Positions 25,167-64,000 are shown, counted from the first letter of the stretch. The stretch is 64,000 bases of DNA from Fibrobacter sp. UWR2 (GCF_002210285.1 NZ_MWQE01000003.1:1-64000); one strand, 5' to 3'. Numbers and translations are program-made. The notes: generated by a model not told the origin, from the sequence alone.

Positions 25167-26003
25167 GTGAAGCCGATCTTTGAATATACAGACTATCGCG
25201 AATGGATTAGGGACGCTTTTGATGACTTCAAACAGCGTAAGACGGTCATTTCTTGGCGATACATGGCTATGAAGCTCGGTGCGGATCCGGGTAACCTGCT
25301 CCGCGTATCCCAAGGGAAGATCCACCTGACGCTTTCGCTCGTGAAGCCCATGGCCGAGTTCTTCGAACTCGACGAGAAGGAGACGGCCTACTGGACGGAG
25401 CTCGTGTGCTTCGGGCGCGCGAAGACCGACGCCGAGGCCCTGAACCATTACGAGAAGATGCAGATCTTGAAGGGAATCCCCCTCAAGAGGCTTGCGAAGA
25501 AGGAACTGGAGTTCTACAGGCACTGGTACTGCAACTCGATACGCTCGATTATCGGCATTTGCAGGTTCAAGGACGACTACGAGGGCCTTGCGGAGAGCTG
25601 TACGCCCCCTATTACGGTAGAAGAGGCGAAGAGTGCCGTAAAACTTTTGTATGATTTAAACATGATTTCGAAGGATCGGGACGGGTACTGGAAGGTGAAC
25701 GACACCTTCGTGAGCACTGGTGGAAACTGGCGCTCCGAGGCCGTGCGTACATTCCAGAAGGAAACTATCCGACTCGCGGGCGAATCGCTGGAGCGCCATG
25801 CGCCTCCTCTGCGCGATATCAGCACCGTGACGATGACCTTCAATATGGACGACATCGCGCTCATCCGCGAGAAGATCAAGGAATTCCGTAGCGAACTCCT
25901 GCGTATGTCGCAGGAAGGCAACGGCGACGATACCGTGTTCCAGCTGAACGTGCAGCTGTTCCCGATTGGTTTTGCGAAGAAACTACAGGAGAAGGCAAAA
26001 TGA
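25167..26003 (+). CDS. TIGR02147/DUF4423 family protein, module copy 1
   Basis: This 278-residue member of the Fibrobacter TIGR02147 family opens with the family signature FEYTDYREWIRDAFDDFK. A helix-turn-helix-like section follows (ISWRYMAMKLGADPGNLLRVSQGKIHLTLSLVKPMAEFF, about 30-70), then the DUF4423 half, ending VFQLNVQLFPIGF. Family members are thought to be regulators, and the DNA-binding-like N-terminus supports that. Translation starts at GTG 25167 with AAGGA eight bases upstream. Its stop overlaps the next start by four bases (ATGA), so it is translationally coupled to the lipoprotein at 26000. Confidence 0.9.
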   Translation: MKPIFEYTDYREWIRDAFDDFKQRKTVISWRYMAMKLGADPGNLLRVSQGKIHLTLSLVKPMAEFFELDEKETAYWTELVCFGRAKTDAEALNHYEKMQILKGIPLKRLAKKELEFYRHWYCNSIRSIIGICRFKDDYEGLAESCTPPITVEEAKSAVKLLYDLNMISKDRDGYWKVNDTFVSTGGNWRSEAVRTFQKETIRLAGESLERHAPPLRDISTVTMTFNMDDIALIREKIKEFRSELLRMSQEGNGDDTVFQLNVQLFPIGFAKKLQEKAK

Positions 26004-27658
26004 AAAAGTTCCTTCTCCTAATACCGGTTGCGCTTGCGGCCTGGTTCTGTTCTTCGCCTACCAACGAGTACCCGTTGGACCTTGTGGGCGGACCCGGAAG
26101 CGAGACGACGAATGGACTTGCCCTTGTCGATGGCAGGCCTGCCTCCTATGCGACTGTTGCTTTGCGCAAGGCCGACTCCAGGGCGGACAAGGCTGTCGAG
26201 GAGAACGCCATTGTCGTGGCCGACACCTATGCCGACGAACAGGGCCGCTTCGACGTGAAGATCCCTGCCGACGGCAAGTACCGCCTCACGGTGGCGCACG
26301 ATGGCGTGGCGTTTACGAAGATTGTTTCCCGCAGTGACTTTGCCGAACCGGGCAAGGCGACTGCTCCCGATACGGTGAACCTCGTGGCGACTGGCCTGGT
26401 GGCCGGTGTCGTGGATGTGCCCGAGGGTTCCTCTACCGTGTGGGTCGGCGTGCTCGGAACCGATGTGCTCGTGAAGACGGATGCGAACGGCTGGTTCGCT
26501 CTCCCGGCTGTCCCCGCGAAGGATTCCCTGCAGCTCTACTTTGTTGACGAGACTTACAAGACGAACTTGGGTGAGCAGACCCTGTATGTCGAACCCATGG
26601 AATCCGTGCTGAAGGATTACCGTGCGCCTGATGACGGCAAGGTTGTCGTGCTCCAGGAAGACGGCACTCCCGCTGCCTACGCGACTGTGGCTCTCCGTGC
26701 TGCCGGCGCGATGGTGGAGAAGTACGCGGTGCAGAACAAGATGGTCGATTCCGATATCCGCACCGATGACCAGGGCAAGTTCGCCATGGAATGGCCCACG
26801 AAGGGCGATTTCCGCCTGACGGTTGTCTCGGAAGGTTTCGCCTTCTCGAAGGTGTTCGCTGCCGCCGAGCTGCCTGCCCTGGATACCTTGCGCCTCGTGC
26901 CGACTGCCGCCGTTTCGAGTAAAGTAACACTCCTGAGCAGTAACGATTTCGCATGGGTCGGCGTCTACGGGCTTGACCTGCTCGTGAAAACGAACAATGT
27001 CGGCGAGTACGTGCTGCCGGGTGTCCCTGCCGGCGATTCGCTCTCCATTTACTTTGTGACTGCGGATTCCGCGAAGGAAGAGCTCTATGCCGAATGGAAG
27101 ACTGCCGCTGAACCTAACAGCACGCAGTTCCTGAGCCCCGTGATGGTCCTGCAGGATTTCGAAGGCGATGCTGACGGCTGGTACCTGAATATCGATTCCC
27201 TCAAGAAGGGCACCGAGTTCAAGACGGCAAATGTGGTGGCTGGCATCGAGAATGATTCTTCCCGTGGCTCGAACGTGTTCCATGGCAAGTACAAGCTGGC
27301 CAACGACGATTACGCCTGGGCGCTTATTGGAACATCGTTCGAACATTACATGAACTTCGCCGCAATCGATTCCATCGTGTTCTACGCGAAGGGCGATGGC
27401 AGCATCAGGCTTTCGCTCGAGAACTGGGTTTCGCCCACGATAAACCTGAAGGCGGCTACTGACTGGATTTCGCTTTCGTCCAAGTGGAAGCGCGTCAGCG
27501 TGAACCCGGCAGAACTCTGCGTGGGCAGCGCCAACGAGGAGACTTGCTTTGCCACATGGAGCGCGGTCAAGGGCGGCGTCAAGCAGTTCCACATATTCGT
27601 GGAAGGCGGCTCCGAGTTCTATGTCGACGACGTGACGCTCTACGGCGCGTTGTTCTAG
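26000..27658 (+). CDS. Lipoprotein with carboxypeptidase-regulatory-like repeats and C-terminal carbohydrate-binding-like domain
   Basis: This 552-residue protein has a short signal with a non-classical lipobox (AAWFCSS, Cys at about 17). Two related beta-sandwich repeats follow. Each begins with VLxxDGxPAxYATVALR (about 40 and 215), then DEQGRFDVKIPADGKYRLTV and a VGVxGxDxLVKT section; these are carboxypeptidase-regulatory-like. The C-terminus (about 375-552) opens VLQDFEGDADGWYLNI and looks like a CBM11/CIA30-type jelly roll ending EFYVDDVTLYGALF. It is probably surface displayed and binds a polymer. It is coupled to the TIGR02147 gene and followed by a strong terminator. Confidence 0.75.
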   Translation: MKKFLLLIPVALAAWFCSSPTNEYPLDLVGGPGSETTNGLALVDGRPASYATVALRKADSRADKAVEENAIVVADTYADEQGRFDVKIPADGKYRLTVAHDGVAFTKIVSRSDFAEPGKATAPDTVNLVATGLVAGVVDVPEGSSTVWVGVLGTDVLVKTDANGWFALPAVPAKDSLQLYFVDETYKTNLGEQTLYVEPMESVLKDYRAPDDGKVVVLQEDGTPAAYATVALRAAGAMVEKYAVQNKMVDSDIRTDDQGKFAMEWPTKGDFRLTVVSEGFAFSKVFAAAELPALDTLRLVPTAAVSSKVTLLSSNDFAWVGVYGLDLLVKTNNVGEYVLPGVPAGDSLSIYFVTADSAKEELYAEWKTAAEPNSTQFLSPVMVLQDFEGDADGWYLNIDSLKKGTEFKTANVVAGIENDSSRGSNVFHGKYKLANDDYAWALIGTSFEHYMNFAAIDSIVFYAKGDGSIRLSLENWVSPTINLKAATDWISLSSKWKRVSVNPAELCVGSANEETCFATWSAVKGGVKQFHIFVEGGSEFYVDDVTLYGALF

Positions 27659-58280: not shown

Positions 58281-58362
58281 GGTAATGGAGTTCCCTTGGC
58301 GGATTATTTGTTCTTGTGTTGCTGAAAATGACAACTTTTTTATGATTTTTATTATAATTGCT

Positions 58363-58433
58363 GAAATTTTAATAAAAACGATATTTTTGTATTGTAAAAT
58401 AAGTTGACTTTTGCAGGATAAGAGGTATATTTA
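58363..58433 (+). promoter_or_regulatory. Conserved upstream block and promoter of TIGR02147 module copy 2
   Basis: GAAATTTTAATAAAA (58363-58377) is followed after 13 bases by ATTGTA (58391-58396). TTGACT (58404-58409) then lies 16 bases before TATATT (58426-58431), close to a sigma-70 consensus, with TATATTTA overall. The first two boxes recur upstream of module copy 3 at the same mutual spacing. Confidence 0.6.
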
Positions 58434-58476
58434 GAGCGTAACCCACCCAGAAACAGGGAATCGGTTAGGAGGAAAA

Positions 58477-59310
58477 ATGAAAGATATCTTTGAATACACG
58501 GGCTACCGTCAGTACATCGCGGATTTTTACGCCGAAAGGAAAGTGAAATCCGCATTTACCTGGCGCGAGTTTGCGAGGATGGCGGGGTTCTCCTCGTCGG
58601 TCCATTTGAAATACGTAAGTGAGGGGAGATTCAACCTGGGAGAAGAAGCCGTAGAGCGCGTGGCCAAGGCCATGGGGCTTGACGGGAACCGGCTGGAGTA
58701 TTTCCGCGCGATGGTAGAGTTCGACCATGCTATTACGGACAACATAAAGAAGGAAATCTTTGACAGGATGCTCTCCATTGCAAAGCAGAGCAATGCCAAG
58801 GTTATCGAGGGCGACGCGTTCCGCTATTTCGACAGCTGGAGGAATCCGGTGCTTCGCGAACTTGCTCCCGCTATGCCCGGGGCAAAACCGCTTGCTCTGG
58901 CAAAAGCATGCCGCCCGAAGGTCACTGCCGCCGAAGTCAGTGAATCTCTGAATTTTTTGGTCAAGGCAAACCTGCTCAAGAAAGATGCCGCCGGCAATTA
59001 CAAACAGTCCGATAAGATTGTGACGGCTGGGCCGATGGCGGCAGCGTCCGTCGCTGTCCGCGGGCTGCACCGCCAGATGGGTGAAATCGCGCTTGACGCC
59101 ATTGAGGGCGTGCCGCAAAATGAACGTCATTTTTCGGGCGTGACCTTGGGTATCACCCGCAGCGCTTACGACGAGATTGTCGCAGTGATTAATGATTGCC
59201 GCAAGAAAATTATTGAGATCGCTACTCGGGATGACGCGACAGACGAGGTGTATCGCCTGAACATGCAGTTTTTCCCGATGACGAACAAGAAAGGTTTTAA
59301 AAAAGGGTAG
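58477..59310 (+). CDS. TIGR02147/DUF4423 family protein, module copy 2
   Basis: This 277-residue TIGR02147 member opens FEYTGYRQYIADFYAERK. It then has a helix-turn-helix-like region (FTWREFARMAGFSSSVHLKYVSEGRFNLGEEAVERVAKAMG) and the DUF4423 half ending VYRLNMQFFPMT. It is closely related to the protein at 61358, sharing long runs such as RYFDSW, RELAPAMPGAKPLALA and GVPQNERHFSG, and more distantly related to the one at 25167. AGGAGG lies four bases before the ATG. It is followed after nine bases by a FISUMP lipoprotein, with AGGAGG in between, as in the third copy. Confidence 0.93.
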   Translation: MKDIFEYTGYRQYIADFYAERKVKSAFTWREFARMAGFSSSVHLKYVSEGRFNLGEEAVERVAKAMGLDGNRLEYFRAMVEFDHAITDNIKKEIFDRMLSIAKQSNAKVIEGDAFRYFDSWRNPVLRELAPAMPGAKPLALAKACRPKVTAAEVSESLNFLVKANLLKKDAAGNYKQSDKIVTAGPMAAASVAVRGLHRQMGEIALDAIEGVPQNERHFSGVTLGITRSAYDEIVAVINDCRKKIIEIATRDDATDEVYRLNMQFFPMTNKKGFKKG

Positions 59311-59319
59311 GAGGAAATC

Positions 59320-61077
59320 ATGAATAATGTTAAAATGAGCAGAAAGTTTATCTGCAGTATGGCGATGCCGCTCGCCATGATGTTCGCGGCTTTCCAGACG
59401 AGCGCACTTGTGGCGTGTTCCGATGACAAGTCCGTCTCGGGCGGTGCTTCGGAAGAGCCGAGCGTTTACGCCCTGAAAGATATCACGGTAGCGGCGCGGG
59501 CTTATTATGCACGCACCCTTGAAAGCGATGGCGGTTCCGGTGAAATTGCGGTGTCTGCTCCGTCGAATCTTTTCCTGTATGGGGGCGAAGCCCGTTTATC
59601 GGAACTGGATACGGTAACCTTGGAACCGCTGGACAGTGTGGCCATTACGGCCAATATCTGTACAACAGAACCGGATACCTTGACCGGCGAAGTAACTAAT
59701 CCCTGTGACGAGGGAACAGCTACCGGATCGTTCAAGTTTAAGGACATCACGTTGAAAAGTCCCGTAGTCCTGATAGAGGCTGTTGCAGGGGAGGTGTCAC
59801 TCAAGGCGATTGTGGACGTGCGAGATTCGGGTTCTTTTGCTATTGACGCTATGTCGCATTTGGCGTATTACCGAATCGCGAATCTTGTCGCGTCCGGTTC
59901 GTCGTTTGCCGCAGCGAAAACGCAGGCTGAATCAGAACTCATGAGTGCCTTTGCATTCGGCGAGTCACCAGCCATACGGCAGGCTGCCTTGAGTGAAGGT
60001 GTCCCGTATGATCTTCTGGAAAAAGTTGGAGAAGAGTTTGGCGCGGCGGGTTCGGTTGCAGGATTGTCGGATTCGACAAGGAGAGCGCTTGAAACGTCGA
60101 TAGAGGGCCTGAATATTTTCACGGTTGTGCAATTTTCTCCTTGGAGCTTTGAAAGGCGCGGTGAGGGCTCTGCCCAGTATTACCAAGAATGCCTGCAGAA
60201 GAAAACTTATTATGCGAACCTGCTTGCGTCTGTGTTTGAGCATGGAACATGCTCGGCCGAGAAGGAGGGAACATTTGCCGATATTTCGGGCAATCTGTTT
60301 GAACTGATGTGCGCGTCCGGTTCCTGGGATATTGCTCTTCGCGAGAGGAACGGCGCCCGCATCAATCACACGTTCGGAACGATGACGGACGCCCGCGACG
60401 GCAAGGTGTACAAGACTGTGACTCTCGATCTGGATGGAATGTCGCAGACATGGATGGCGGAAAACCTGAAGTACGAGGCAGAGGGGTCATTCTGTTTTGA
60501 TGACGAATGTTTCGAGGGCGTGTCATCGAATAGTTCCATTGGTCGCATGTATTCGTTCGTGTCTATGCTGGATTCTGCGTACTTTAAGGGAGCCTGGGAA
60601 GACGAAGATGGCTATGTCGATTACGATAGTGTGAAGTGGGATATGATTGCCGATTCGTTGGATGTCCTGAATTTTAACATGTGCCCCGAAGGTTGGCATG
60701 TGGCTCGATACGAAGAATGGGAAACTCTGTTCTCGTACCTGAGGAATAACTTTGGTGCCGAGTTGGGCAAGGAAACAAACTGGTTGATGCAGTCCTTTGG
60801 CAATCCGACGGGATTCGGCATGGATATGGTGGCTCGTGTGCGAGGGGCTAATGGTTGGTTCAAGATACAATTCTATCCGATGAAGTACCTGTTCGCTCCG
60901 ACGTTCTTGCCTGAAAGTGCTCTTAAGCCGGAGGTTAGCATGTCGTGGGCTGGTGTGTTCGGAACGATTGTTAGTTATAGTTATTCGGGGGAACGTCTTG
61001 GTAGCCACTCTCATTTTGTAATTGAACATTATTATGGACCGGCAACAACGGGTTTCGTCCGTTGCGTCATGGATTAA
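59320..61077 (+). CDS. FISUMP-domain lipoprotein, module copy 2
   Basis: This 585-residue protein has a long signal with lipobox-like ALVACSDD (Cys at about 31). An N-terminal beta-rich domain follows (YALKDITVAARAYYARTLES to the VDVRDSG region). A helical section comes next (RIANLVASGSSFAAAKTQAESELMSAF) and then a variable helical part. The C-terminal FISUMP domain starts at GTMTDARDGKVYKTVTL, has WMAENLKYEAEGSFCF and CPEGWHVARYEEW, and ends TTGFVRCVMD. It is likely on the cell surface. The upstream TIGR02147 gene is probably its regulator or partner. A terminator follows. Confidence 0.9.
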   Translation: MNNVKMSRKFICSMAMPLAMMFAAFQTSALVACSDDKSVSGGASEEPSVYALKDITVAARAYYARTLESDGGSGEIAVSAPSNLFLYGGEARLSELDTVTLEPLDSVAITANICTTEPDTLTGEVTNPCDEGTATGSFKFKDITLKSPVVLIEAVAGEVSLKAIVDVRDSGSFAIDAMSHLAYYRIANLVASGSSFAAAKTQAESELMSAFAFGESPAIRQAALSEGVPYDLLEKVGEEFGAAGSVAGLSDSTRRALETSIEGLNIFTVVQFSPWSFERRGEGSAQYYQECLQKKTYYANLLASVFEHGTCSAEKEGTFADISGNLFELMCASGSWDIALRERNGARINHTFGTMTDARDGKVYKTVTLDLDGMSQTWMAENLKYEAEGSFCFDDECFEGVSSNSSIGRMYSFVSMLDSAYFKGAWEDEDGYVDYDSVKWDMIADSLDVLNFNMCPEGWHVARYEEWETLFSYLRNNFGAELGKETNWLMQSFGNPTGFGMDMVARVRGANGWFKIQFYPMKYLFAPTFLPESALKPEVSMSWAGVFGTIVSYSYSGERLGSHSHFVIEHYYGPATTGFVRCVMD

Positions 61078-61143
61078 ACACCTTAAATTGCAAAAATAGG
61101 AGGGGAATGCCCTAAAAAGGAGGAATAGGGCTAGGAGGGGAAG
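61078..61143. other. Purine-rich stretch with orphan ribosome-binding-like sites
   Basis: Three AGGAGG-type motifs occur here (61098-61105, near 61117 and near 61133) without a real gene after them. The first precedes ATGCCCTAA (61107-61115), a two-codon frame. It may be a remnant of an earlier module copy. The rest of 61078-61357 holds the terminator and the promoter of module copy 3. Confidence 0.4.
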
Positions 61144-61175
61144 GAAGATAGGCTTGCGCCTATCTTCTTTTTTTT
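61144..61175 (+). terminator. Rho-independent terminator between module copies 2 and 3
   Basis: GAAGATAGGC, loop TTGC, GCCTATCTTC: a perfect ten-pair stem followed by eight T. Confidence 0.93.
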
Positions 61176-61268
61176 GCGCTAAATTCAGTTTTCGAGTTGC
61201 TTCGCTTTTTTTTGGAAGTTTACATTGGGAAAATATGATGATTTTTTAGAAATTTATTTAAAAATGGC

Positions 61269-61340
61269 GAAATTTTAATAAAATCGCTAATTTTACATTG
61301 TAGAAAAAAGTGATTTTTCTTATTTCGGAGGTTATATTTA
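61269..61340 (+). promoter_or_regulatory. Conserved upstream block and promoter of TIGR02147 module copy 3
   Basis: GAAATTTTAATAAAA (61269-61283) and ATTGTA (61297-61302) repeat the pair found upstream of copy 2, again 28 bases start to start. TATATTTA (61333-61340) then lies 36 bases after the start of ATTGTA (35 in copy 2). The -35 is not a clear match here. Confidence 0.6.
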
Positions 61341-61357
61341 GAATGCTAGGAGGAACA

Positions 61358-62188
61358 ATGAAGGGAATACTTGAATACACGAGCTACCGCCGGTATATTG
61401 CCGACTACTACGCCGAAAAAAAGGCCAAGTCGGCTTTCACCTGGCAGGACTTCACAAAGGCGGCAGGATTCACGTCGACTGTCTACCTTAAGTATGTGAG
61501 CGACGGATATTTCAACCTGAGCGATGCCGCCACGAAACGCGTGGCCGCGGCCATGAATCTGACGGAATTCGAACAGGAATACTTCTATGAGATGGTCCGG
61601 TTTGACCGCGCAAAGACGGATGCCGAGAAAAAGGCAATCTTCAAGAAGATGCTCTCTATCGCGGAATCGCACAAGGCGAAAATTCTGGAAGGGGACTCGT
61701 TCCGCTATTTCGACAGCTGGAAAAATCCTGTCATTCGCGAACTTGCTCCCGCTATGCCGGGCGCAAAGCCGCTAGCTCTCGCGCATGCGTGCCGCCCTAA
61801 AATTACCGCAGCCGAAGTGAGCGAAACTCTCAACTTTCTTGTCAAGGCGAACCTGCTCCAAAAGGACAAAGACGGGAAATATGCACAGACCGAAATAGGC
61901 GTGTCTACGGGTCCCATGGATGCGACTCCGGTAGCGGTTCGCGAAATGCATCGCCAGATGGGTGAATTTGCTCTCGGGGCCATAGAAGGTGTACCGCAAA
62001 ATGAACGCCATTTTTCGGGCTTGACGCTTGGCGTCACACATGATGCCTACGATGAAATTGTTCAAGAAATTGCAGAATTCCGCAAAAGAATTATTGCGAT
62101 TGCAACGAGAACGAATGATACGGACGAAGTATATCGTTTGAATGTTCAGTTCTTTCCGATGACAAAAAAGTGTGTAAAAAAGGATTAG
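61358..62188 (+). CDS. TIGR02147/DUF4423 family protein, module copy 3
   Basis: This 276-residue TIGR02147 member has LEYTSYRRYIADYYAEKK, a helix-turn-helix-like FTWQDFTKAAGFTSTVYLKYVSDGYFNLSDAATKRVAAAM, and the DUF4423 half ending VYRLNVQFFPMTKK. It is a clear tandem paralogue of 58477-59310. ATG 61358 has AGGAGG upstream and follows the promoter element; an in-frame ATG at 61310 would lie upstream of that element. The stop is nine bases before the next ATG, with AGGAGG between them. Confidence 0.93.
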   Translation: MKGILEYTSYRRYIADYYAEKKAKSAFTWQDFTKAAGFTSTVYLKYVSDGYFNLSDAATKRVAAAMNLTEFEQEYFYEMVRFDRAKTDAEKKAIFKKMLSIAESHKAKILEGDSFRYFDSWKNPVIRELAPAMPGAKPLALAHACRPKITAAEVSETLNFLVKANLLQKDKDGKYAQTEIGVSTGPMDATPVAVREMHRQMGEFALGAIEGVPQNERHFSGLTLGVTHDAYDEIVQEIAEFRKRIIAIATRTNDTDEVYRLNVQFFPMTKKCVKKD

Positions 62189-62197
62189 GAGGATATC

Positions 62198-64000
62198 ATG
62201 AAAATTTCAAAACAAAACACGCTGCTGCATGATTTTGTTGGGCCTGCATTCTGCCTGATGATGACGGTTGTTCCTCTCGTGATCTTCTCGGGTTGTTCTG
62301 GAGATGACGGTAAATCGCCGTTGGTGCACGAAGGTGGCTACACTGAAGAAACCGCTTCGCTTGAAAACATCACGGTTGCCGGTCGTGCATTGAACTTGTA
62401 TGTGAAGGCGCAGGAGGTGGAATCCGACGATGAAGAATCGGTTGCGGTTATCTCGGGATCTGCTTATGCCGAGGGAGCCCGGGTAAAGTTTTTCGGAGTC
62501 GATACGGCGACATTTGAAATTTCCGAAGAACCGTTTGCACAGGCGCAATCGGATAATGACGGTAATTTCGAAGTGAAGGATGTTTCTCCCGAGAGCCCGT
62601 TCGCTGTTGTCGAGGTTACTGGAAATATTGCTTTGAATGTGAAGAATCCTGGCGGTATGTTGTCGTATTATCCGGACGATTCGCTGGCCGAGACTACTTA
62701 TAGGACCGTTGTGGATTTGCGCAAGACAAAAGATGTGAAGGTTAATATACTGACGACCTTGGCGACAGGCCGCGTGTTTAACCTCGCAAAATCGGGGCTA
62801 ACCTTTGCAGAAGCGAAGACCCAGGCTGAAACGGATGTGTTACATGCGCTTGGAATACGCGAAACTTTAGACGCGTTCGACAAGGTGGATTACTCAAAAA
62901 AAACGAGTTCCATTTTCCCTGTGTTCATTATGACCAGTTATCTGTTTGAAGGTTCCCTTGCGGCGGTAGACCTTGCGGCTGCCGACATTGCTGAGGATGG
63001 CAATTGGAGAGCACTTACTTACGAGCGTTATTTTGACCAGAAACATGCGGAGATGATGTTCCATTTGCTACGTGAGCCGGAATTCCTTGTGCTTTTGGGG
63101 CTTGATTCAACGGATACCCTTGTTGCGGAATTGGCAGAAAAGTACTTCTTTAATGTTGTAATAAAGATTGCGTACAGAAAGGGCGATTGCACCGAGAGTC
63201 GTCAGGGAGAATCATTTGATCATGGTTATTATGTCTATGTAGTATGTGAAGACGATTATTGGAGGGTTCGTGAAAAGGAATTGCAGAAAAATCTTGGAAC
63301 GATGACGGACGATCGTGATGGTAAGGAGTACAAGACATTTTCGTTTACATACAAGGATACGACATGGACTTGGTTTGCGGAAAATTTGAATTATGCTGTT
63401 GACGGCTCTTGGTGTTACGATGATGACCCGTCCAATTGCGAAACTTACGGGCGCCTGTATTCGATGTGGACAACGTTCAAGGTTCCTAGGGATACGGCGT
63501 TTGTTGCGAAGGAATGGGCGTGCTTCTATCCGGCTCCCTCGGAGGCTGGTAATGAGGATGAACTTTGCAAAGGCTATGAAGAAGCGAGAGATCGTGTGTT
63601 TGATGCTTTCGATTCGGCGGATGTTCAAGGTGTTTGCCCGGAGGGTTGGCATGTTGCAACTCCGGATGATTGGGCGAATTTGATTGATTACGCGTTTGAT
63701 GAAATCGGCTATGCCGATGATGTGTCTGCGGCCTTTAAAACAACGACATGGACGGCGGGATCTGATGGAAAAGATGCCTTTGGGTTCAATATGTTGCCGG
63801 CTGGCCGTGTCGACCGTCGGGATCTTCCGGAATGGTACTACAGTACAGAATACGTTGACGGCACTAATCCGCAGCATGTAGCAGGAGATTTTGGCTTAGG
63901 GGCGTATGGCTGTTTTTCTGCGTGGGGCGACGGTCATAAGTCTCCGTTTAAAATAAGGAGTAAAGAAAATGGCAAGAATCATCTTCCCTATTGTGTAAAC
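62198..64000 (+). CDS. FISUMP-domain lipoprotein, module copy 3 (3' end beyond window)
   Basis: The frame from ATG 62198 is open for 601 codons to the window edge, so the gene is partial. It has a signal with lipobox IFSGCSGDD (Cys at about 36). The N-terminal domain is related to copy 2 (SLENITVAGRALNLYV, then VVDLRKTKD). The same helical section follows (FNLAKSGLTFAEAKTQAETDVLHALG), then a diverged middle. The FISUMP domain begins GTMTDDRDGKEYKTFSF, with WFAENLNYAVDGSWCYDD, CETYGRLYS and CPEGWHVATPDDW. GC content is lower than in the housekeeping genes of the window. AGGAGG precedes the ATG. Confidence 0.92.
   Translation, partial: MKISKQNTLLHDFVGPAFCLMMTVVPLVIFSGCSGDDGKSPLVHEGGYTEETASLENITVAGRALNLYVKAQEVESDDEESVAVISGSAYAEGARVKFFGVDTATFEISEEPFAQAQSDNDGNFEVKDVSPESPFAVVEVTGNIALNVKNPGGMLSYYPDDSLAETTYRTVVDLRKTKDVKVNILTTLATGRVFNLAKSGLTFAEAKTQAETDVLHALGIRETLDAFDKVDYSKKTSSIFPVFIMTSYLFEGSLAAVDLAAADIAEDGNWRALTYERYFDQKHAEMMFHLLREPEFLVLLGLDSTDTLVAELAEKYFFNVVIKIAYRKGDCTESRQGESFDHGYYVYVVCEDDYWRVREKELQKNLGTMTDDRDGKEYKTFSFTYKDTTWTWFAENLNYAVDGSWCYDDDPSNCETYGRLYSMWTTFKVPRDTAFVAKEWACFYPAPSEAGNEDELCKGYEEARDRVFDAFDSADVQGVCPEGWHVATPDDWANLIDYAFDEIGYADDVSAAFKTTTWTAGSDGKDAFGFNMLPAGRVDRRDLPEWYYSTEYVDGTNPQHVAGDFGLGAYGCFSAWGDGHKSPFKIRSKENGKNHLPYCVN

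Follow-up and report, generated by a model that had tools for sequence, protein, structure and literature searches.

TIGR02147/DUF4423 proteins of Fibrobacter as probable class-specific regulators of the surface lipoproteins encoded beside them

Why is a gene of the TIGR02147/DUF4423 family followed, again and again, by a gene for a large lipoprotein? The arrangement occurs three times in a 64,000-nucleotide stretch of Fibrobacter sp. UWR2 (GCF_002210285.1, NZ_MWQE01000003.1:1-64000; hereafter "the window"), a rumen-type genome of 3.28 Mb in 20 contigs, where a first-pass annotation had read it as cognate sets of regulator and surface protein. Both the TIGR02147 proteins and the lipoproteins paired with them make up large families in Fibrobacter, a key rumen fibre digester; our literature search found no paper that names TIGR02147, gives its function or proposes a mechanism, and no published description of the pair or of the operators reported here. 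We posit that TIGR02147/DUF4423 proteins are probably autoregulating, class-specific DNA-binding regulators of co-transcribed, surface carbohydrate- or ligand-binding lipoproteins, and sometimes of nearby operons as well. Pairing, operon layout, a shared lipoprotein motif, and the conservation of operators together with their match to recognition-helix class are established by sequence.

Regulator and lipoprotein genes form conserved, operon-like pairs

A TIGR02147 profile search (cut-off 50 bits) of the whole genome and 14 control genomes recovered 31 genes in the former, each exceeding the cut-off, and none in the controls. Directly 3' of 30 of these 31 genes lies a same-strand lipoprotein gene whose start falls −77 to +22 nt from the regulator stop, with the ATGA overlap a frequent junction. 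Lipoproteins were called solely by a pattern for signal peptide and lipobox cysteine, and we made the gene calls and the lipobox and motif models ourselves; all 30 partners carry the lipobox signal by this pattern. Strict-pattern lipoproteins account for 113 of 951 genes (~12%) in a 1.26 Mb sample (38% of the genome, which also served for specificity), and against this background the observed pairing has a binomial P of 4.8e-27. The sole unpaired gene (C10:52936-53787, + strand) runs head-on towards the lipoprotein gene of the module next to it, so that at C10:52936-55891 two TIGR02147 genes converge on one lipoprotein gene. The module at C1:89814 has a second FISUMP lipoprotein with the shared motif behind it (C1:93163-95970); some modules thus have two lipoproteins.

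Phylogenetically, TIGR02147 occurs in 157 of the 168 genomes of Fibrobacterota, and copy numbers in the tens are frequent. With a partner defined as a lipoprotein starting −90 to +60 nt from the regulator, 91 of 98 sampled Fibrobacterota loci were paired (29/29 in the genus; in distant families 27/29 best hits and 35/40 other copies), as were 21 of 29 loci outside the phylum, in Bdellovibrio- and Myxococcus-type genomes. The collection was scanned with a 7-sequence alignment, and the loci beyond the phylum include metagenome-assembled genomes (MAGs) labelled Bdellovibrionales, Oligoflexia, Myxococcales, Deltaproteobacteria and Silvanigrella, names being those of the records. One MAG with a DUF4423 gene is labelled Klebsiella pneumoniae, probably wrongly. 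Several predicted lipoproteins among the distant Fibrobacterota partners have an arginine before the lipobox cysteine (LLFRCSPD, LLLRCSAG), an unusual form that standard patterns miss.

The three pairs reported at first pass are all present, with a 4-nt overlap once and a 9-nt gap twice, and the first-pass account if anything understated the pattern; the proposed count across Fibrobacter genomes came out paired throughout the sampled genus loci, and the opposite outcome, TIGR02147 genes elsewhere with no preference for a lipoprotein, did not occur in the genome or the phylum. The two genes also look like one operon-like transcription unit. Of 29 modules, 16 have a terminator-like site 3' of the lipoprotein, where mononucleotide shuffles predict 4.7, and hairpins comparable to that behind the second window module (61140-61171) follow the next two modules too. 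With their own operators, a ribosome-binding site at the junction and a strong terminator after module 2, the pairs at 58-64 kb look like operons, and by these criteria the separate transcription that the first-pass annotation had named as a counter-case was not what we found. Regulator and lipoprotein would therein be co-transcribed and translationally coupled, one exported lipoprotein to each regulator.

Three putative operator classes follow the recognition helix

Structurally, the regulator is likely to carry an N-terminal helix-turn-helix (HTH), as had been claimed from the sequence alone. A profile of the 31 proteins aligns residues 24-73 with the XRE-like structure 3kxa (E 5e-4) and gives a weak match to a winged helix at residues 126-182. 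The AlphaFold2 (AF2) model of regulator 58477 (predicted local distance difference test, pLDDT, 90) shows a helical HTH, a winged helix and two long helices, for which Foldseek returned mainly MarR, PhiH1-repressor and XRE-like folds. Predicted structure and weak profile matches thus both support the HTH claim, and a protein with an XRE-like N-terminal HTH and a second, winged-helix domain would bind DNA and control its own transcription.

Candidate binding sites came from motif discovery in the 31 upstream regions, which gave 18.3 bits per site compared with 11-12 for control promoter sets. The element, here class A, consists of two inverted arms (AAATTTgc-N8-GCnAATTTTg), for which a spacer scan peaked clearly at 8; it precedes both modules at 58-64 kb and lies ~10 nt upstream of the −35 box wherever that box is recognisable, a position that suggests an activator. 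In leave-one-out scans each of 11 sites outscored all but at most one non-TIGR02147 position on both strands of 1.26 Mb; these scans and the random control promoters argue against a generic AT-rich promoter element. Across 41 Fibrobacter genomes a degenerate class-A pattern had 112 matches (3 for the reversed control), and TIGR02147 lay directly downstream in 22 of 30 fetched loci; in two further loci of the 30 the element precedes motif-bearing lipoproteins that have no adjacent regulator. In one such case, at G136:C1:716000-720421, four tandem lipoproteins with an SSVAGGDSEE-type motif stand behind one class-A operator, with no regulator adjacent. Another strong match (32 bits), at C1:568447, has no TIGR02147 gene in its vicinity and coincides with the 3' end of a guanylate-kinase-like gene.

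The operator goes with the predicted recognition helix: class A was found at 12 of 19 genes with an [HYF][LM]K helix and at none of the 12 others, and one of the 12 bearers, C3:168410, is only ~30% identical to the window protein 58477. Two further classes have operators of their own. Class B joins xYLDL[IV][RHK]G helices to upstream GTGTTCYC-N4-TGTTCYY repeats, a pattern that occurs once in the genome, before such a TIGR02147 gene (C7), and before such a gene in 27 of 30 fetched genus loci (reversed control 0). Class C joins MFNKILQG helices to TGTGGAC-N16/17-TGTGGACT; the double site occurs once in the genome, before such a gene (C1:1031152), and before one in 5 of 8 loci.

Functionally, class C points to pectin. 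Its modules adjoin genes for apparent rhamnogalacturonan lyases (RGL11) and GDSL esterases in 6 of 6 genomes examined, with RGL11 Pfam-confirmed in two. All three class-C partner lipoproteins tested contain a pectate-lyase domain, and the RGL11 genes beside the class-C module have TGTGGAC half-sites in front of them as well. GH9 or GH26-CBM35 genes adjoin other modules. Each HTH class may thus read its own operator before its module, and sometimes before neighbouring operons for lipoproteins or carbohydrate-active enzymes (CAZymes), with the class-A regulator acting as an activator from its site just upstream of −35. A small HTH gene in close coupling with another gene would also be expected of a toxin-antitoxin, immunity or anti-phage defence pair, but the partners are large, exported and in many cases equipped with carbohydrate-binding domains, CAZyme genes are neighbours in several cases, and no match to the PADLOC defence protein models was found; we rejected a defence function, which we hold to be very improbable.

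Several results weigh against class-specific regulation by TIGR02147 as proposed here. The Foldseek E-values are weak, none falling below 0.001, which leaves the HTH likely but short of proof, and no Pfam HTH model reaches its cut-off with TIGR02147 proteins. Seven of the 19 genes with the LK-type helix have no clear operator; upstream motif searches found none for about ten other copies, including the window module at 25167, which has no class-A site upstream. Since many of the 19 are of common ancestry, operator sharing is partly inherited, and class-C sites in trans are clear in only 2 of 6 clusters. The first-pass interpretation is accordingly supported in part: cognate sets hold between classes, two others besides class A having their own operators, but not copy by copy, since 12 of the 31 genes share a similar operator and one helix type, which makes cross-regulation within class A likely.

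A motif behind the lipobox is shared by unlike partners

The partners' ectodomains are diverse: FISUMP, CarboxypepD_reg, CBM_4_9, Laminin_G_3 and a pectate-lyase helix, with a CBM30-like match below cut-off in one and no family in several. Many of the lipoproteins would bind a sugar or another ligand through their ectodomain (FISUMP, CBM, Laminin_G or pectate-lyase helix). FISUMP, reported to be a putative binder of cellulose or a possible analogue of cohesin (PMC4704652), is the C-terminal domain of about nine or ten partners, including both at 58-64 kb. Of the 112 FISUMP domains that the genome encodes, most lie outside TIGR02147 modules, and we rejected FISUMP as the domain that defines a partner. 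A FISUMP protein has been detected in the envelope of F. succinogenes S85 on cellulose but not on glucose (PMC4619616), which lends the proposed reading indirect support. DNA binding, the sign of regulation, surface location and a role towards the substrate are what we infer for these modules.

What unlike partners do share is a motif, G-G-x-[ST]-[ED]-T-x-N in the alignment, just after the lipidated cysteine; in other phyla its form is typically GT[ED]xGNP. A position matrix built from other genomes only ranked partners in all of the top nine places among 113 genome lipoproteins (Mann-Whitney P 1.7e-7), and the motif is therefore no general lipoprotein feature. The first-pass coupling of the family names TIGR02145 and TIGR02147 fails as a rule, most FISUMP domains being unlinked, while the shared motif holds as one.

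The motif may direct sorting or surface assembly through a single dedicated partner for export or anchoring, in which case TIGR02147 would regulate these lipoproteins locally in the ordinary way and have nothing directly to do with the motif. Lipoprotein surface-export signals of Bacteroidetes sit directly after the acylated cysteine, the place that the motif occupies here, and unrelated ectodomains share it; the other sampled lipoproteins of the genome lack it, however, and with most FISUMP domains outside the modules it cannot be the genome's general signal for lipoprotein surface export, a role that we rejected. A dedicated signal, to which we give somewhat less than even chances, would be compatible with class-specific regulation.

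Evolutionarily, the partners are linked. Regulator and mature-lipoprotein distances correlate (Mantel rho 0.42, P 1e-4; 0.31 without tandem copies), which bears out the co-evolution expected at first pass, and among 89 non-redundant pairs the regulator's middle domain still tracks the lipoprotein with the other domains partialled out, an effect to which a higher evolutionary rate of the middle domain may contribute. The distance correlation found no co-variation of the signal peptide with the regulator, and we rejected the signal peptide as a pheromone. Linked divergence and tandem copies would also be expected of a duplicating cassette whose genes stay together by linked inheritance, neither regulating the other, but gene order, coupling and motif persist across phyla while the ectodomains vary, and operators match helix classes and precede regulator-less lipoproteins too; such a cassette seems improbable.

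An addition to class-specific regulation would be a feedback circuit, in which TIGR02147 would recognise the post-lipobox motif, on a precursor still awaiting export or on a fragment brought back into the cell, and tune transcription according to export status or to the load of ligand. It would fit the motif's specificity for partner lipoproteins, its persistence in other phyla as GTExGNP, its presence in operator-driven lipoproteins without an adjacent regulator, and the tracking by the middle domain. Against it, the operon reveals no path by which a regulator in the cytosol could meet a lipoprotein that has been exported; the signal peptide shows no co-variation; the model consists of winged helix and long helices and is not a tetratricopeptide repeat (TPR) peptide receptor; and the motif might just as well serve as a tag for sorting. 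We consider such feedback a tentative and rather unlikely idea. The same doubt attaches to its wider form, an undescribed signalling system of DUF4423 proteins and GTExGN-motif lipoproteins from Fibrobacterota to Bdellovibrio- and Myxococcus-type bacteria, in which the cytosolic partner might read the precursor or a fragment of the exported lipoprotein and control the surface repertoire. The conserved motif is the obvious handle on any feedback from lipoprotein to regulator.

The modules of the window

The features of the three modules are collected in Table 1. The surface-type domains claimed at first pass are there: FISUMP scores 87.9 bits in lipoprotein 59320 and 119 bits in 62198 (cut-off 41.65), and 26000, which has no match to the TIGR02145 profile, carries CarboxypepD_reg repeats. 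The AF2 model of lipoprotein 59320 is of low confidence (pLDDT 45). An additional module lies immediately beyond the window end (C3:64343-67168).

Table 1. Features of the three regulator-lipoprotein modules (ORF, open reading frame)
Feature	Coordinates	Strand	Basis
Module 1 regulator, TIGR02147/DUF4423; GTG start; helix type GNLLRVSQG	25167..26003	+	338 bits TIGR02147
Module 1 partner lipoprotein; two CarboxypepD_reg repeats; ATGA 4-nt overlap with regulator	26000..27658	+	ORF, Pfam
Module 1 post-lipobox motif GGPGSETTNGLA	26087..26122	+	alignment
Module 2 class-A operator; arms of inverted repeat 58362-58371, 58380-58389	58351..58394	+	motif discovery, spacer scan, leave-one-out scan
Module 2 sigma-70-like promoter TTGACT-16-TATATT, immediately 3' of operator	58404..58431	+	sequence
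Module 2 regulator, TIGR02147/DUF4423	58477..59310	+	302 bits; AF2 pLDDT 90
Module 2 ribosome-binding site AGGAGG over regulator stop codon	59309..59314	+	sequence
Module 2 partner lipoprotein; FISUMP domain 60379-60822; 9 nt from regulator	59320..61077	+	ORF, profile match
Module 2 post-lipobox motif GGASEEPSVYA	59440..59472	+	alignment
Module 2 closing intrinsic terminator; 14-bp hairpin (−19.9 kcal/mol), then T run	61140..61171	+	sequence, folding energy
Module 3 class-A operator; arms 61268-61277, 61286-61295	61257..61300	+	spacer and leave-one-out scans
Module 3 regulator, TIGR02147/DUF4423; alternative GTG start upstream at 61310	61358..62188	+	303 bits
Module 3 ribosome-binding site AGGAGG over regulator stop codon	62187..62192	+	sequence
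Module 3 partner lipoprotein; FISUMP from 63299; 9 nt from regulator; gene end 64078 beyond window	62198..64000	+	ORF, profile
Module 3 post-lipobox motif GGYTEETA	62333..62356	+	alignment

Implications and comparison with known systems

With ~30 operon copies and at least three classes, each with its own control sequence, two large families of undescribed function look like a regulatory system for plant-fibre-handling surface proteins. The outcome, read from sequence, is a testable code of regulator, operator and lipoprotein with named binding sequences, in which one class is tied to pectin degradation and the pair extends beyond the phylum; if true, it would be one way for such a bacterium to organise control of its fibre-facing surface proteins.

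By score (302-338 bits for TIGR02147, cut-off 50; 91.5 bits for DUF4423, cut-off 30) the window regulators are full members of TIGR02147 (Fsuc_second)/DUF4423, a family of paralogues without described function; one paper has DUF4423 solely as a table entry, Bd3700, with raised expression in Bdellovibrio growing in prey (PMC12546842). The resemblance to FISUMP (TIGR02145, Fib_succ_major) is limited to its being a domain of some partners, most of its genome copies being unlinked to TIGR02147. Among regulatory systems, the RRNPP proteins with lipoprotein-derived pheromones (PrgX type) likewise connect an XRE-like HTH protein to a lipoprotein, but the TPR repeats that are the RRNPP hallmark are absent from the TIGR02147 regulator model, and the partner signal peptide does not co-vary. 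The local regulators of polysaccharide utilization loci (SusR, HTCS, and ECF/anti-sigma pairs with SusCD) resemble the modules in standing beside surface lipoproteins and lyases, as in the class-C pectin cluster. The modules, however, use a one-component HTH protein, with no membrane-spanning sensor or sigma factor recognised, and no SusC/SusD was recognised among the translated module neighbours (mostly read by eye, with Pfam on some). A working analogy is offered by SigI/RsgI of Clostridium thermocellum, where paralogous regulator sets each have a different carbohydrate-binding ectodomain; in RsgI that ectodomain is joined through the membrane to a cytosolic anti-sigma domain, whereas in the Fibrobacter module it is a separate lipoprotein.

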